Notes under the pieces: generated by a model
Seen by the model: the letters and a program-made list of their open reading frames with translations, nothing else
Told to the model about the DNA's origin: nothing
Databases searched by the model: none
Translations under genes and position numbers: made by a program
In this document: positions 6,498 through 11,377 of the stretch, piece by piece
Layout: each line of letters starts with the position of its first letter
How positions within the stretch are numbered: position 1 is the first letter of the stretch
Assembly (NCBI GenBank): GCA_902783175.1
Contig: CACZQA010000017.1
Span: 1-11,377 of the forward strand
From: an uncultured Coriobacteriaceae bacterium
GTDB taxonomy: Bacteria; Actinomycetota; Coriobacteriia; Coriobacteriales; QAMH01
DNA: 11,377 nt
Direction of reading: 5' to 3'

Positions 6498-6744
6498 TAG
6501 AGAAGGGGTCGGGAAGAGGCTCGTGTGCTGGCTGTGCGGGCCTCCTGAGAGCGAGCGGAATCCCGGCCCGCAGAACAGCAAGACGCGGCAATGCAAAGTT
6601 GCTAGCGTTTGTCAAGTTATGGGTATTGTTTGTAGCCAATTTTTAAAACCGCAGGTCAGAGGCTTGCAGGTAAAATTCGCGTTCACAGGTCCTCCACATA
6701 CGTTTGCGCTTCGAACGCGGTTTCGCGTAGCCTTTTTGACCATT
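6498..6744 (+). other. structured intergenic region/leader before the RlpA-like gene
   Basis: No gene is supported here. It contains several stem-loops. TGCGGGCC (6535-6542) pairs with GGCCCGCA (6565-6572), and this is extended by GCTG (6531-6534) with CAGC (6576-6579). A second is ACGC-GCAA (6583-6591) with TTGC-GCGT (6599-6608). A third, ACGCG/CGCGT (6715-6719 with 6724-6728), is followed by T5 (6733-6737) just before the start codon. The stretch 6600-6680 is markedly AT-richer and is where a promoter would be expected (TTGTCA at 6609-6614; TAAAAT at 6671-6676), but the two are not correctly spaced. It matches no riboswitch I can recall, including the ydaO c-di-AMP class that precedes some RlpA/Rpf genes. 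Confidence 0.5.
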
Positions 6745-7311
6745 ATGAAGCATTCAAACGCAGCACGACTCATCGCGACGCTCGGCATTGCCGGCGTCAT
6801 GGCATTCGGAAGCTTGAACGCTCCGATGGCAGCGCTCGCCGACGAGCAAGACTCGCAGAGCGCACAGGACACGAGCGGTCTTGTCACCGCCGTCACACGC
6901 GACCTGCCCGGTCAGCTCATGGGCAAGGTCAATCAGATCACCGAACAGCAATGCAGCATGGAGAGCCTGCTCGCCGCTGGCAGCGCGGTCGACGCGGACG
7001 CCTACCGCGCGACGCTTCCCGACTCGGTCTCGTGGAAGAGCTGCGGTGTGAGCACGTATGGCCTTGGAGATGGGCTCATGGGCTCCAATTGCTCCGACGG
7101 CTCGAAGGTCACCACGACGTCCATGGGCGTCGCGCACAAGACGCTGCCGCTCGGCACCTCCATCCAGATCTCGTGCAACGGCAAGGTTGTCAACGCGACC
7201 GTACGCGACCGCGGGCCGTTCGTGGCAGGCCGCGACATCGACCTGCAGCCCGCCGTGGCGAGCGCGCTCGGCTTTAGCGGGGTCGGCAAGGTCGAGTACC
7301 GCGTCTTGTAG
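6745..7311 (+). CDS. secreted RlpA-like double-psi beta-barrel protein
   Basis: Predicted exported cell-wall protein of 188 residues. An N-terminal signal peptide (basic KHSNAAR, hydrophobic core about 8-24) has a likely signal peptidase I site at ALA-DEQ (residues 30-33). There is no lipobox, so unlike RlpA it is not a lipoprotein. After a low-complexity linker the C-terminal double-psi beta-barrel covers about residues 99-188. It carries His131 in AHKTLPLGT and Asp155 in VRDRGPF, the hallmarks of the RlpA family, some of which cleave denuded peptidoglycan glycans. Cysteines at 70, 100, 116 and 144 could form disulfides. No SPOR domain is present. ATG 6745 is chosen because the signal peptide begins there, although no Shine-Dalgarno site is visible. 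It opens a closely packed four-gene run. Lytic activity is unproven. Confidence 0.85.
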   Translation: MKHSNAARLIATLGIAGVMAFGSLNAPMAALADEQDSQSAQDTSGLVTAVTRDLPGQLMGKVNQITEQQCSMESLLAAGSAVDADAYRATLPDSVSWKSCGVSTYGLGDGLMGSNCSDGSKVTTTSMGVAHKTLPLGTSIQISCNGKVVNATVRDRGPFVAGRDIDLQPAVASALGFSGVGKVEYRVL

Positions 7312-7320
7312 CCACCTCAC

Positions 7321-7806
7321 GTGAAGTCCCTCGCAATCAGGCATATCCAGGTCAAGCGTGGCGCCCTCGTTCTCGAGGTGGTAGCACCGCTCTCGACGAT
7401 GCGCGTGCCGGCGGACGCCGCGCGCCGCATGCTCGAGTTGCTCCCCAACCTTGCGCACCATGTCTGCGTGAACGACAACGGCGATACCTTCGGAGACGAG
7501 ATCGCGGGCACCGAAGCCGCGCATCTGCTCGAGCACACCATCATCGAGCTGCAGGGGAAAGCGTACGCGAGCTGGGGCGCGAGCCGTCCGCTGTTCACGG
7601 GGCGCACCTCGTGGAAGAGGAGCCTTGCCGGGGCGCGCTCGACCGGCGAGTCCCTCATGCTCACAACTGTGACGTTCGTGAATGATTTCGTCGCGCTGCA
7701 GGCTGCCGAGTTCGCATGCGGTATCATCGAGTGGGCGTACGATCCCGATACACACACCGCGCCTGACATTGCCGCGCTCGTCGATCGTCTCGCGCAGCTG
7801 GTCTGA
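7321..7806 (+). CDS. stand-alone protein resembling the cyanophycin synthetase (CphA) N-terminal domain
   Basis: Soluble protein of 161 residues. From memory of CphA sequences, its core follows the CphA N-domain pattern: LLPNLAHHVC (40-49), then a GT (63-64) leading into HLLEH (68-72) and ELQ (77-79), then GRT (94-96), then a beta strand TTVTF (115-119) and a final helix. In CphA this domain precedes the ATP-grasp domain, which here is encoded by the next gene. The HxxEH motif is the one seen in M16-type zinc peptidases, and I recall a cryptic hydrolase site of this type in some CphA N domains. The third zinc ligand here is unclear (Asp122 or Glu130). The start is GTG 7321, nine bases after the RlpA-like stop and in the same frame, without a clear Shine-Dalgarno site; ATG 7399 is the alternative. 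Substrate unknown. Confidence 0.7.
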   Translation: MKSLAIRHIQVKRGALVLEVVAPLSTMRVPADAARRMLELLPNLAHHVCVNDNGDTFGDEIAGTEAAHLLEHTIIELQGKAYASWGASRPLFTGRTSWKRSLAGARSTGESLMLTTVTFVNDFVALQAAEFACGIIEWAYDPDTHTAPDIAALVDRLAQLV

Positions 7807-7852
7807 GCGCGCGCTGCACCTGCCTGTGCGGCGTGAGGAGAGGAGCCGAAGC

Positions 7853-8818
7853 GTGCCCTACAAGGTTGCAGTACTCATCGACGACGCTTCCCGCACGAGT
7901 CCGCTCGCGCAGGAGGCAAAGCTCAACATCTGCGACGCGCTCGAGCAGGCGGGGCACGAACCCGTTTTGTTCGAGGCGAACTCCCAGCTCACGGCGATGC
8001 TGCGCCATGAGCGCCCCGATGTCGCCCTCAACGCGACGAGCGGCAAATCCGCCGTCGACGGGTCGATACAGTCGCTTATGGACCTGCTCGGCATCCCCTG
8101 CATCGGCAGCTCGGCGAGCATCCTGCGCCAGGCGTGCGACAAGAGCGCGCTTCCAACGATGCTGCGGCGTTTCCAGTTTGGAGAATACGGCGATGCCGAC
8201 TTCGTCTTGGGCGTGAGGATTCCGAAGAGCGTCTACGAGGGGCTCGGGGGATCACAGGCGCTCGACCTCATCGCGCACCGCATTCCGGCGGGCTATCCAC
8301 TCGTCGTGCGTGCCGGTCACCAGGGCACCAACGTCAAGCCCATCAAGGTCGACGACCCAGCGCAGCTCGGGGTGGCGCTCGCGATCGTCTACGACGCCGA
8401 CCACGACGCGCTCGTGGAAGAGTGGGTCGACGGCGTCCACCTTGCGGTTGGCGTGCTGGGACACGGCCCCGAGGCGTTTGCGCTGCCGCCGGTCGAGCTC
8501 ACCTTCGACGAGGACGGAACGACGGTGGCCACGCATGCCCCCGTGCGCATGGAGTCGCTTTCGGGCGACGAGGCGAACGCGCAGGGCATCCGCAGCGAGA
8601 TAGAGCGCGCCGCGCTCGAGGTACACCGCGCCTACAGCGCCCGTGACCTCTCGTGCATCGACATCATCTGGGACGGCGCGAGCGCGCGGGTGCTCGAGAT
8701 AAACCTCGCCCCCTCGCTCGCCCCCTCATCGGGCTTCACCCTCTCGTGCGATACGGCTGGTATCAGCCTGAAGGCACTGCTCAACGAGCTCATCGAGCAA
8801 GCGATTGCTCGCGGATAA
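7853..8818 (+). CDS. D-Ala-D-Ala-ligase-like ATP-grasp enzyme
   Basis: Cytoplasmic carboxylate-amine ligase of the ATP-grasp superfamily, 321 residues, close to Ddl in length. The N-terminal domain runs to about residue 95. DGSIQSLMDLLGIPCIGSS (69-87) matches the EDGxIQGLLELLGIPYVGS region of Ddl. CDK (95-97) corresponds to the Ddl MDK. VEEWVDG (188-194) matches the VEEFIEG segment. The metal-binding triad is intact: Asp270 in CIDIIW, Glu282 and Asn284 in LEINLAPS. Differences from true Ddl include HGPxGED replaced by NATSGKSAVDG, the VKP lysine replaced by Arg153 (VVRAG), and EINTxPG reading EINLAPS. It is therefore probably not the housekeeping Ddl but a ligase with another acceptor. GTG 7853 is chosen for its strong AGGAG seven bases upstream. 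Confidence 0.82.
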   Translation: MPYKVAVLIDDASRTSPLAQEAKLNICDALEQAGHEPVLFEANSQLTAMLRHERPDVALNATSGKSAVDGSIQSLMDLLGIPCIGSSASILRQACDKSALPTMLRRFQFGEYGDADFVLGVRIPKSVYEGLGGSQALDLIAHRIPAGYPLVVRAGHQGTNVKPIKVDDPAQLGVALAIVYDADHDALVEEWVDGVHLAVGVLGHGPEAFALPPVELTFDEDGTTVATHAPVRMESLSGDEANAQGIRSEIERAALEVHRAYSARDLSCIDIIWDGASARVLEINLAPSLAPSSGFTLSCDTAGISLKALLNELIEQAIARG

Positions 8819-8834: not shown

Positions 8835-10322
8835 ATGTACTGTTTTGAGAAACTGGCTGACGGGCTGTACTGGATCGGCGGAGAAGACGCGCGCCTCGGC
8901 AAGTTCGAGGGCCTGATCCCCGTGCCGTATGGCATGTCCTACAACACCTACCTCATCAAAGACGAGAAGACGGTCCTCATCGACACGATCGACCGCGCGG
9001 TCGAGGAGCGCTTCCTCACCTCGCTCGACTATCTGATCGGCGACGGCACGCTCGACTACATCATCACCCAACATGCCGAGCCCGACCATATGGCCACGCT
9101 CGGGTCGGTCGCCGCGCGCTACCCCGAAGCGAAGATTCTCGCCTCGGCCATGTGCAAGCGCATGGTCTCGCAGTTCTTCGACGACGAGCTCGCCGCGCGC
9201 GTCGAGGTGATCGACGACGGCGACACACTCGAGACGGGCAAGCGCACGCTTAAGTTCCTGAGCGCGCCCATGGTCCACTGGCCGGAGGTCATGATGACCT
9301 ACGACGCCTACGACAAGACGCTGTTCTCGGCGGACGCCTTCGGCATGTTCGGCAGCCTCGACGGGCGCCTGCGCGATATCGACCGCGACTTCGAGCAGGA
9401 CATGCTGCCCGAGATGCGCCGCTACTACGCGAACATCTGCGGCAAGTACGGCGCTCAAGTCGACGCCATCCTCGACAAGATCGAGCCGCTCGACATCGCG
9501 CGCGTGTGCACGCTGCACGGTCCCGTCGTCGAGCACAGCGCCGTGCAGGCAATCCACTCCTACCGCATCTGGGCGGGCTACCAGCCGGAGGTCAAGTCCG
9601 TCGCGATCATGTACGCCTCCATCTACGGCGGCACGCGCGACGTGGCGGAGAAGCTCGCGTTCCTGCTGACCGGCCTGGGCGTCGGGGGCGTCAAGATCTA
9701 CGACGTCAGCGAGGTCGACGCCAGCTACCTGCTCGCCGAGGCCTACCGCGTGAGCAACGTCGTGCTCGCCTGCGCGACCATGAACATGGAGATGAACCCC
9801 AAGATGGCAGACCTGCTCGAGGTGTTTGCGACGCACGGCCTGAAGAACCGCAAGTTCTCGCTCATCCAAAACGGCTCGTGGGCACCGCAGGCCGGCAAGC
9901 GCATGCTCGAGGCGCTCGAGAAAGTCCCGGGCACGCAGATCGTCGGCGATATGTTCACGATCAAGTCGCGCATGAAAAACGAGCAGGAAGGCGACCTCGA
10001 GAAGCTCGCCCAGGCTATCGCCGAATCGGTCGGCGCCGTCGTGACGGCATCCGAGGTGGAGCAGCGCGAGAAGGCTCCCGAGGCAAGTCCCCTGCCCGCG
10101 GGCTTCGTGCCCCCTGTCGCCCCGCCCAAGATCAACGACCCCTACGGTGCGGGGGCGGCAACCAAGCCGACCCAGGTCATCGAGGTCTGGAAGTGCACGT
10201 ACTGCGGCTACCAGGTCGAGGTCCCGCGGGGCACCGACATGTCGAACTTCACCTGCCCGGTGTGCCTGAAGGTGGGCATGTTCAAGAAGATCCGCGAGAA
10301 GATCGTCGAAGTCGAGTCATAA
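8835..10322 (+). CDS. flavodiiron protein (A-type flavoprotein) with C-terminal rubredoxin-like domain
   Basis: Reduces O2 to water and/or NO to N2O, protecting anaerobes. The protein is 495 residues. The metallo-beta-lactamase-like domain carries a complete diiron set: His80-x-Glu82-x-Asp84-His85, His148, Asp167 and His228. Spacings of 62, 18 and 60 residues match the family pattern exactly. A flavodoxin domain (about 254-400) has the FMN loop ASIYGGT (261-267). A proline/alanine-rich linker (about 412-447) leads to a zinc-ribbon/rubredoxin-like module with Cys454, Cys457, Cys474 and Cys477. Only 16 residues separate the two CxxC pairs, shorter than in classical rubredoxin and more like the rubrerythrin tail. 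ATG 8835 has GTGGAGGAG just upstream and lies 16 bases after the ATP-grasp stop. The electron donor and the O2/NO preference are not readable. Confidence 0.95.
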   Translation: MYCFEKLADGLYWIGGEDARLGKFEGLIPVPYGMSYNTYLIKDEKTVLIDTIDRAVEERFLTSLDYLIGDGTLDYIITQHAEPDHMATLGSVAARYPEAKILASAMCKRMVSQFFDDELAARVEVIDDGDTLETGKRTLKFLSAPMVHWPEVMMTYDAYDKTLFSADAFGMFGSLDGRLRDIDRDFEQDMLPEMRRYYANICGKYGAQVDAILDKIEPLDIARVCTLHGPVVEHSAVQAIHSYRIWAGYQPEVKSVAIMYASIYGGTRDVAEKLAFLLTGLGVGGVKIYDVSEVDASYLLAEAYRVSNVVLACATMNMEMNPKMADLLEVFATHGLKNRKFSLIQNGSWAPQAGKRMLEALEKVPGTQIVGDMFTIKSRMKNEQEGDLEKLAQAIAESVGAVVTASEVEQREKAPEASPLPAGFVPPVAPPKINDPYGAGAATKPTQVIEVWKCTYCGYQVEVPRGTDMSNFTCPVCLKVGMFKKIREKIVEVES

Positions 10323-10330
10323 GGCGCGAG

Positions 10331-10371
10331 CTGCCCCACGCGGGCATTTTGACCTGCCGCGCGTGGGGCAG
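10331..10371 (+). terminator. long hairpin without T-tract after the flavodiiron gene
   Basis: CTGCCCCACGCG (10331-10342) is perfectly complementary to CGCGTGGGGCAG (10360-10371). Inside, GGCA (10343-10346) pairs with TGCC (10355-10358), with one bulged G and a TTTTGACC loop. It begins nine bases after the stop codon. TGATGG, not a T-run, follows, so it is a probable tail-less terminator or 3'-end stabiliser. Confidence 0.55.
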
Positions 10372-10427
10372 TGATGGTACTCTTAGAGCTGCTAGATATT
10401 CGTTTTGAAGCGAAGGGCGTGAACATA

Positions 10428-10754
10428 ATGAGCAAGGCTGTTTCCTTTATCGCAGGTGCCGCTGTCGGTGCGGTCGCAGCGCTGATGCTGAGCCCCAATT
10501 CCGGCGAGGAAAACCGCAGGATCGTCACCGAGAAGGCGGCGTACTACAGCTCTCATGGCGACGAGCTGTTCCAGCAGGCAGCTGATGCCGTCCGCGACAA
10601 GGTCAAGAGCGCTCCCGAGGCAAGCGTCGCGACTGCAGACGATATCAGGGAAAAGATCAACGCCGCCCGTGACCGCATCGCAGAGCAGGTCACCCGCAAT
10701 CAGGCGGCCCAGCAGGTCGAGGCAGACGTCTCCGACGTCGCCGCAGCGGAGTAG
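10428..10754 (+). CDS. YtxH-like small membrane-associated protein
   Basis: 108-residue protein. The N-terminal hydrophobic glycine/alanine segment (about residues 5-21, IAGAAVGAVAALML) is followed by SPNSGEENRR. This is the YtxH pattern of a short membrane helix then a P-x-SG-x-E-x-R-like turn. The rest (30-108) is a charged, alanine-rich, probably coiled helix typical of this poorly characterised, often stress-associated family. ATG 10428 has AAGGG ten bases upstream. An in-frame GTG at 10371 would add 19 residues reading out of the hairpin and is rejected. A PRC-barrel gene follows 45 bases later; no specific biochemical role can be assigned. Confidence 0.75.
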   Translation: MSKAVSFIAGAAVGAVAALMLSPNSGEENRRIVTEKAAYYSSHGDELFQQAADAVRDKVKSAPEASVATADDIREKINAARDRIAEQVTRNQAAQQVEADVSDVAAAE

Positions 10755-10799: not shown

Positions 10800-11377
10800 A
10801 TGATCACAACGACCCAGATAGGAAAGAAGCGCGTCTACCTGCGCAACAAGAAGGGGCGCCTGAAAAAGTTCGGCAAAATCCGCGCGGTGGTGTTCCACCC
10901 ATCAAAGCCGCAGGCCATCGGCGCCGTCATCAAGCGCCCCGACTTCTTGCTGATGTTCAAGCGCAAGGAGCGCTTCGTCGCGCTCGACCGCTTCAGGCAG
11001 GTCGAAGGCGGCTTGGAGGTTGTCGACCAAGCCGATTCGTGGGACACGGCGGCGTGCAAGCGTATGGGCGTCGACTACGATTCCTGCATCATCTGGGACT
11101 ACATGCCCATCGTGACCGATGCCGGCCGCGAGCTCGGCAACATCACCGACATCGCGCTCGACGAGGACACGTACGCGATCGACCATGTCGACATCGCGCC
11201 GAACAGCCTGAACCGCGCGATACTCGGCAGCGCGAACATCCCCGTGAACATGATCCGCGGCTACAAGGACAATGCCATCGTCGTCAAAGACGAGATCGGC
11301 GAAATCGAGGAGACCGGCGGCGTTGCCGCGAAGGCGGGCGAGGCGTGGGCAAAGACCAAGCACACCGCGGCGACTAC
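10800..11377 (+). CDS. PRC-barrel domain protein, 3'-truncated
   Basis: The frame is open from ATG 10800 to the end of the window, with 192 residues visible and no stop. Two PRC-barrel-like beta modules are apparent: residues about 5-75 (KKRVYLRNKKGRLKKFGKI... then FVALDRF) and about 98-165, where the second contains DAGRELGNITDIALDED, the common 'G-x-x-L-G-x-v-x-D' motif of PRC barrels. The first module is strongly basic (KKGRLKKFGK, KRKERF). An alanine/lysine-rich segment begins near residue 172 and continues out of the window. PRC barrels act as small binding modules in RimM, photosynthetic reaction-centre subunit H and uncharacterised stress proteins. AAAGG lies 12 bases upstream, a somewhat long spacing. 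Function unknown. Confidence 0.7.
   Translation, partial: MITTTQIGKKRVYLRNKKGRLKKFGKIRAVVFHPSKPQAIGAVIKRPDFLLMFKRKERFVALDRFRQVEGGLEVVDQADSWDTAACKRMGVDYDSCIIWDYMPIVTDAGRELGNITDIALDEDTYAIDHVDIAPNSLNRAILGSANIPVNMIRGYKDNAIVVKDEIGEIEETGGVAAKAGEAWAKTKHTAAT

Follow-up and report, generated by a model that had tools for sequence, protein, structure and literature searches.

A free-standing cyanophycin synthetase N-domain protein next to an eroded paralogue of D-alanine-D-alanine ligase in an uncultured Coriobacteriaceae bacterium

In this work, we asked whether two adjacent genes of an uncultured Coriobacteriaceae bacterium, coding for a protein of 161 residues (hereafter the N protein) and for a protein of 321 residues (hereafter the window ligase), form a split cyanophycin synthetase (CphA), as the original prediction from the sequence proposed. 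The stretch of DNA analysed (11,377 nucleotides, hereafter the window) is contig C17 of a genome that is 83 % complete. At a probability of about 0.64, we favour another reading of this locus, i.e. that the N protein is a free-standing metallopeptidase-like protein and that its neighbour is an orphaned, eroded ligase left from an older gene set and belonging to a second family of D-Ala-D-Ala ligases (Ddl), called Ddl2 below.

All genes around the pair (dnaB-like, purA, purD, NUDIX, purE, RlpA-like, N, ligase, flavorubredoxin-like, YtxH and PRC-barrel) lie on the + strand (Table 1). The N gene is separated from the ligase gene by 46 bp, and the latter from the next gene by 16 bp. The homologue search retrieved 30 similar proteins, of which 29 cover at least 84 % of the query and one (P0005) covers 60 %, so that the observation cannot be attributed to chance.

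Table 1. Position of the features discussed in the text, given in nucleotides of the window
Feature	Positions	Strand	Basis and remarks
RlpA-like (DPBB) open frame just 5' of N	6523..7311	+	PF03330, 40 bits; true start probably later
Free-standing CphA N-domain protein of 161 aa; zinc metallopeptidase-like (C-H-H) by prediction	7321..7806	+	PF18921, 36.7 bits; AF2 model; GTG start
C49 codon, equivalent to metal ligand C59 of SuCphA1	7465..7467	+	C in 67/67 loci; role as given in PMC9262961
HxxEH motif (H68, E71, H72), equivalent to SuCphA1 H79, E82, H83	7522..7536	+	All three invariant, 67/67 loci
Ddl2-type ATP-grasp protein, 321 aa, D-Ala site eroded	7853..8818	+	PF07478, 57.1 bits; residue replacements; long tree branch; GTG start
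Flavorubredoxin-like (FprA) gene directly 3' of ligase	8835..10322	+	PF19583, PF00258
YtxH-like protein, part of conserved neighbourhood	10371..10754	+	PF12732, 46.9 bits
PRC-barrel protein, runs off window; part of conserved neighbourhood	10800..11377	+	PF05239

The product of the first gene of the pair is confirmed as a free-standing CphA N-domain protein, and this part of the original prediction was borne out. It scores above the cut-off of PF18921 (Cyanophycin_syn, the CphA N domain; 36.7 against 27 bits, E 4.6e-9) and is matched by the CphA equivalog TIGR02068 at 28.1 bits (cut-off 850) over the N-terminal part of that model only. When an AlphaFold2 model of the protein (pLDDT 92.1, 26 aligned sequences) was compared with the PDB, the 12 best matches were all CphA1 or CphA2 structures, with E <= 0.001 for 8 of the 12 (top match E 2.7e-6; highest TM-score by query 0.71), and a PDB sequence search gave three weak matches, two of which are cyanophycin synthases (E 0.21 and 0.86). 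Unlike CphA1, the N protein carries neither a G nor an M domain, and it accounts for the single PF18921 match of its genome (83 % complete).

Residues of the N protein were compared with those of the CphA enzyme SuCphA1 in an alignment of 67 loci, i.e. the window and 66 others, chosen for the most part among the N matches of highest score and the members of the same family. N is present in all of them by construction, and lineages with weak matches are under-represented because of this choice. PMC9262961 describes in the SuCphA1 N domain a hidden metallopeptidase-like site, C59-H79-E82-H83, with the motif Cx19HxxEH, and reports that primer-independent activity was reduced or abolished by the substitutions H57A, C59A, R70A, H79A and E82Q, that the isolated domain functions in trans and that R70 and E90 both contact cyanophycin, R70 also mattering for activity. 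Our mapping of residues to CphA rests on this paper and on two of five CphA control loci, those in which the motif search found the N region.

The metal site is strictly conserved, C49, H68, E71 and H72 being invariant in 67/67 loci, and the supporting positions nearly so: H47 (position of SuCphA1 H57) is His in 64 of the 67, position 76 (SuCphA1 E87) is Glu or Asp in 66 and F57 (SuCphA1 F67) is Phe in 56. The N protein is thus like the CphA1 N domain, the seat of a hidden primer-making peptidase, in its fold, its C-H-H metal ligands, its catalytic Glu and its supporting His, Glu and Phe. It differs from it in standing alone at 161 residues, in its spacing, which is C-x18-HxxEH in 65/67 loci and x19 as in CphA1 in the other 2 (C, H, E and H being all present), and in the replacement of the R70 and E90 contacts: the R70 position is Arg in 0/67 loci (Glu in the window protein) and the E90 position is Glu in 0/67. 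As the metal site is kept but at least two cyanophycin contacts are replaced, the N protein would most likely cleave a different cytosolic peptide; the reading that fits it best is that of a metallopeptidase standing on its own, with a substrate other than cyanophycin, its activity being a prediction.

The same replacements can be turned the other way. Since the R70 position has lost its Arg in every locus and R70A is harmful in SuCphA1, the N site could be inactive, and the protein could be a non-catalytic peptide-binding or scaffold protein with a purely structural metal site. This would agree with CphA1 enzymes that still produce polymer without an active N domain and with the impaired activity of the R70A N domain of SuCphA1 (PMC9262961). 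We nevertheless regard it as unlikely: the general-base Glu (E82, i.e. E71 of the N protein) is not among the metal ligands named for the SuCphA1 structure, and a structural site would not need E71, a residue kept in all loci.

Free-standing N proteins are not a peculiarity of this strain. PF18921 was detected by profile search in 332 of 396 genomes of the class Coriobacteriia, with one match each, and in 7/7 genomes of the family; among the class matches listed, which make up some of the 332, no open frame is longer than 483 residues and no score exceeds 63.9 bits. In a sample of 396 genomes of the phylum, 56 had a PF18921 match, 32 of them Coriobacteriia. Among the 24 others, 22 scored above 113 bits, and 20 of these had the match in a frame of 924-1334 residues, i.e. 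of CphA size; the remaining two (G555 and G633) have short frames, that of G633 containing a stop. Weaker, short matches (about 53 bits) were found outside the class in G678 and G747. Short frames within the class, as opposed to CphA-sized ones outside it, indicate that in Coriobacteriia the domain is used on its own. What had been described as a peptidase-like part of cyanophycin synthetase is here encoded by a gene of its own, widespread throughout the class, with no CphA-like score among the class matches listed. One N match (G383:C250, locus L102) contains an in-frame TAA.

For the second gene, the original prediction of a Ddl-like ATP-grasp enzyme held up. The 321-residue protein matches PF07478 (57.1 bits, cut-off 24) and, below cut-off, PF01820 (20.9 against 34.6 bits); Ddl models also come first among NCBIfam profiles, although the top match (93.2 bits) is under its cut-off of 243. 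Its PDB sequence matches are Ddl or Van-type ligases, and all 50 listed PDB matches of its structural model (pLDDT 92.6, 29 aligned sequences) are D-Ala-D-Ala ligases. The same genome also carries a canonical Ddl (183.6 bits, G000:C181). The relatives listed for the window ligase outside its own 90 %-identity cluster, which holds 201 member sequences, are 39-50 % identical to it and make up the Ddl2 family. The window ligase is thus a second Ddl paralogue, and not a CphA G domain.

In relatives, the partner of Ddl2 is an aminotransferase of PF00155, closest to LysN-like multi-substrate and 2-aminoadipate aminotransferases (1x0m, 2egy). No orthologue of this gene was detected in the genome of the window (83 % complete), where the best match to it has only 26 % identity. 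Ddl2 copies that have kept this partner are well conserved. In 22 of them, the equivalents of H63, S150, E180, R255, D257, E270, G276 and S281 are invariant and that of E15 is Glu or Asp in 21; the equivalent of K215 is Lys in none of them, and that of Y216 is Tyr in 12. Among these residues we take E15, H63, S150, Y216 and R255 (DdlB numbering) to have D-Ala-binding roles. Like Ddl (PF07478/PF01820), Ddl2 shows the fold and most of the ATP/Mg residues, and the relatives retain most of the D-Ala site as well. The window copy differs by E15->P, H63->S, S150->T and R255->C, by a replacement at G276 too, by K144->Arg and by deletion of the K215/Y216 stretch; it has the fold and ATP-grasp of a D-Ala-D-Ala ligase and lacks its D-Ala-binding residues.

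Loss of the D-Ala site goes together with absence of the partner gene. It was observed in 3/3 N-linked Ddl2 copies without aminotransferase (the window, L105 and L113) and, to a comparable extent, in 0/22 copies with it. The three eroded copies stand on long branches of the ligase tree (0.92 for the window, 1.83 for L105 and 1.38 for L113, against a median of 0.16), and well-supported branches separate them into at least two erosion events, the placement of such long branches being unsure. Two further Ddl2 proteins from the database, P0036 and P0152, have lost part of the D-Ala-site residues.

All three eroded genes are still open frames and may therefore have a new job. The window ligase would then be an active, neofunctionalised enzyme with a new substrate rather than a dying gene or a pseudo-enzyme, as its open frame of 321 residues, its confidently predicted fold, its kept equivalents of D257, E270, N272, E180 and K97, and the size of its 90 %-identity cluster, which shows that it is not a one-off, would all suggest. 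Against these features stand the replaced or deleted residues listed above, the long branch and a partner gene that was not found in a genome 83 % complete, and we hold this possibility to be a real one, though rather doubtful.

To place the pair in its genomic context, linkage was counted over the 67 loci by tblastn, since gene calling missed real genes (e.g. the aminotransferase in L072 and L110). An aminotransferase gene was found downstream of N and on the same strand in 28/67 loci, at -3 to 4261 bp, and Ddl2 came next in 27 of them; a match of 25 % identity in L102 was left out of this count. The order and strand of N and aminotransferase are identical in 28/28 linked loci, across separate families, and the arrangement seen most often among them is N - aminotransferase - Ddl2 - YtxH - PRC-barrel. 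A gene of about 430 residues between N and the ligase had been considered as a Mur ligase and was rejected, its Pfam family being that of the aminotransferase.

The bare N-ligase pair, without aminotransferase in between, was found in 3/67 loci only (the window, L105 and L113), all with an eroded ligase. The expected conservation of the two genes side by side is thus largely contradicted for the bare pair, and what stands of it is that both genes share one conserved neighbourhood. Within the stretch covered, 36/67 loci have neither Ddl2 nor aminotransferase, although L080, which ends at N itself, says nothing on this point; the upstream match of L075 is a canonical Ddl. In four family members (L007, L043, L044 and L046), N is followed directly by the flavorubredoxin gene, without aminotransferase or ligase. 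The YtxH cluster lies near N in at least 36/67 loci and a second cluster, YtxH-like by eye, in at least 17; the PRC-barrel cluster does so in at least 52/67 and the RlpA-like cluster in 18/67. In many loci of deep lineages (L056-L082), the region upstream of N repeatedly contains a Holin-X-like gene, assigned to PF07332 in two cases, and a gene for a protein of about 900 residues, and an RlpA-like gene is common there too.

These counts bear directly on the split cyanophycin synthetase, in which the N protein would dock the growing peptide and the adjacent ATP-grasp protein would extend it. The 46 bp between the genes, the homology of the N domain and the ATP-grasp fold are what this model has in its favour. 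It is opposed by a ligase that is of Ddl type by profile, sequence and fold and that has lost residues kept by its own family, by the many loci in which N stands without ligase, and by the lone PF18921 match in the genome (83 % complete). A search by tblastn with two CphA M domains, which recovered 5/5 CphA control loci (2 of them being the sources of the queries), found no CphA-M-like Mur ligase in the 67 loci, though distant Mur ligases could escape it; the predicted lack of a Mur-ligase module nearby is to this extent confirmed. With a 161-residue N protein, a Ddl-type neighbour and no CphA-M-like match, the N, G and M modules of cyanophycin synthetase are not found together, and we consider a two-part version of this enzyme very improbable.

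The aminotransferase-Ddl2 pair was then surveyed over 65 genomes, 40 with and 25 without the aminotransferase according to a count made by hand (L080's genome, G121, lies outside this set and L047 was not assigned to a genome). Ddl2 is present in 40/40 genomes that have the aminotransferase and lies directly downstream of it in 39 (adjacency in G042 and G367 was taken from tblastn of the loci); in G003, Ddl2 is partial, at a contig end, and in G095 it is unlinked to the aminotransferase. An intact Ddl2 occurs in 0/25 genomes without aminotransferase, whose other Ddl matches were each classified individually and three of which retain an eroded, N-linked copy; the main Ddl match is canonical in 22/22 of these genomes, G001 and G004 having no match and the window genome (G000) being classified separately. 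The idea that Ddl2 is the sole Ddl of these bacteria was discarded, as PF07478 was matched twice at E <= 1e-25 in 42/65 genomes.

The tie of the N gene to this pair is much looser. The aminotransferase lies near N in 28/40 genomes and elsewhere in 12/40. Over 396 genomes of the class, 153 have both N and aminotransferase, 19 the aminotransferase only, 179 N only and 45 neither, i.e. N is present in 153/172 genomes with the aminotransferase and in 179/224 without it (Fisher p 0.019; hand count treating two class samples as the same 396 genomes). N and aminotransferase thus co-occur weakly, and N can do without the aminotransferase-Ddl2 pair; such frequent presence of N without the partner of the ligase also goes against the prediction of a two-part enzyme.

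The position of N beside the pair may then be mere hitch-hiking in a region of envelope genes, with unrelated functions. The near independence of N and aminotransferase, the 12/40 pairs located away from N and the gap between N and aminotransferase, often 100-340 bp in deep lineages, are all in line with this view. It is harder to reconcile with the constant order and strand of the 28 linked loci across separate families, and with a genome outside the class (G678) in which N lies within 8 kb of a related gene set, albeit on the other strand. We take hitch-hiking as a serious possibility that nonetheless falls short of being probable. A coupling of N with Ddl2 is plausible because of the 28 co-linear loci and is weakened by the independent persistence of N; the weak co-occurrence with the aminotransferase and the 12 pairs away from N likewise weaken a functional tie.

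To follow Ddl2 beyond the class, other actinobacterial genomes were searched; many match the Ddl2 query at E <= 1e-60, canonical Ddl included. The best 20 Ddl2 loci were retained, 3 from the class and 17 from outside it. An aminotransferase homologue lies upstream, on the same strand, in 17/17 of these best-scoring outside loci. A gap of about 1 kb separates it from Ddl2 in 5/17, the other 12 leaving no room for a gene coding for the isomerase PhzF, and the three of these five gaps that were opened all hold such a gene (L176 3722-5992, L179 5629-7798 and L180 2670-6367). Both L176 and L179 have YtxH close to Ddl2, and L179 has PRC-barrel as well. L176 is the locus of G678 mentioned above, with a short N protein and an aminotransferase-PhzF-Ddl2 set. 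PhzF had no match in the 67 class loci, and with a PhzF-sized gap in only 5/17 outside loci, the evidence for a D-amino-acid step is weak. A possible undescribed pathway is represented by this outside-class set; open-licence PMC literature yielded nothing on it or on free-standing CphA N proteins in Coriobacteriia. The aminotransferase-Ddl2 pair itself, common to other actinobacterial classes and co-occurring almost without exception in the genomes surveyed, suggests a pathway leading to a dipeptide or a D-amino acid, on which the same literature likewise yielded no paper.

Returning to the favoured reading of a metallopeptidase-like N protein beside an orphaned Ddl2, the ancestral set would probably have worked as follows: the aminotransferase would supply an amino acid that may have been of the D form, Ddl2 would join it into a dipeptide and the N protein would possibly trim or edit the product of Ddl2. 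In the lineage of the window, the aminotransferase would have been lost, as would the D-Ala pocket of the ligase, in an order that we can only infer, and N would continue. What the data show directly is the homology and fold of the two proteins, the conservation of motifs, the gene order, the co-occurrence and the erosion, from which metal binding, catalysis, the substrates, the direction of gene loss and a functional coupling are inferred.

By gene order alone, this set resembles the logic of VanH/VanT - VanA/VanC - VanX, i.e. precursor enzyme, Ddl-type ligase and zinc dipeptidase, in that an enzyme for a building block, a ligase of Ddl type and a protein resembling a metallopeptidase are encoded close together. 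It differs in having an aminotransferase, in some loci outside the class with PhzF, in place of the dehydrogenase or racemase, and the fold of the N protein presumably differs from that of VanX. In its most elaborate form, the likeness would imply a native module in which the aminotransferase (with PhzF in some relatives outside the class) makes an unusual, probably D, amino acid, Ddl2 makes the dipeptide and N removes or edits a competing dipeptide, the module decaying in the window while the peptidase stays. We judge this form quite improbable; if true, a Van-like logic would here serve the ordinary chemistry of the envelope and would employ a peptidase fold so far described from a storage-polymer enzyme.

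Finally, some of the genes that are annotated as D-alanine-D-alanine ligase in these bacteria are members of Ddl2, a second and non-canonical family. Five genomes lacking the aminotransferase (G194, G176, G134, G132 and G222; loci L186-L190) carry yet another Ddl type, 27-38 % identical to all queries, which is neither Ddl2 nor canonical.
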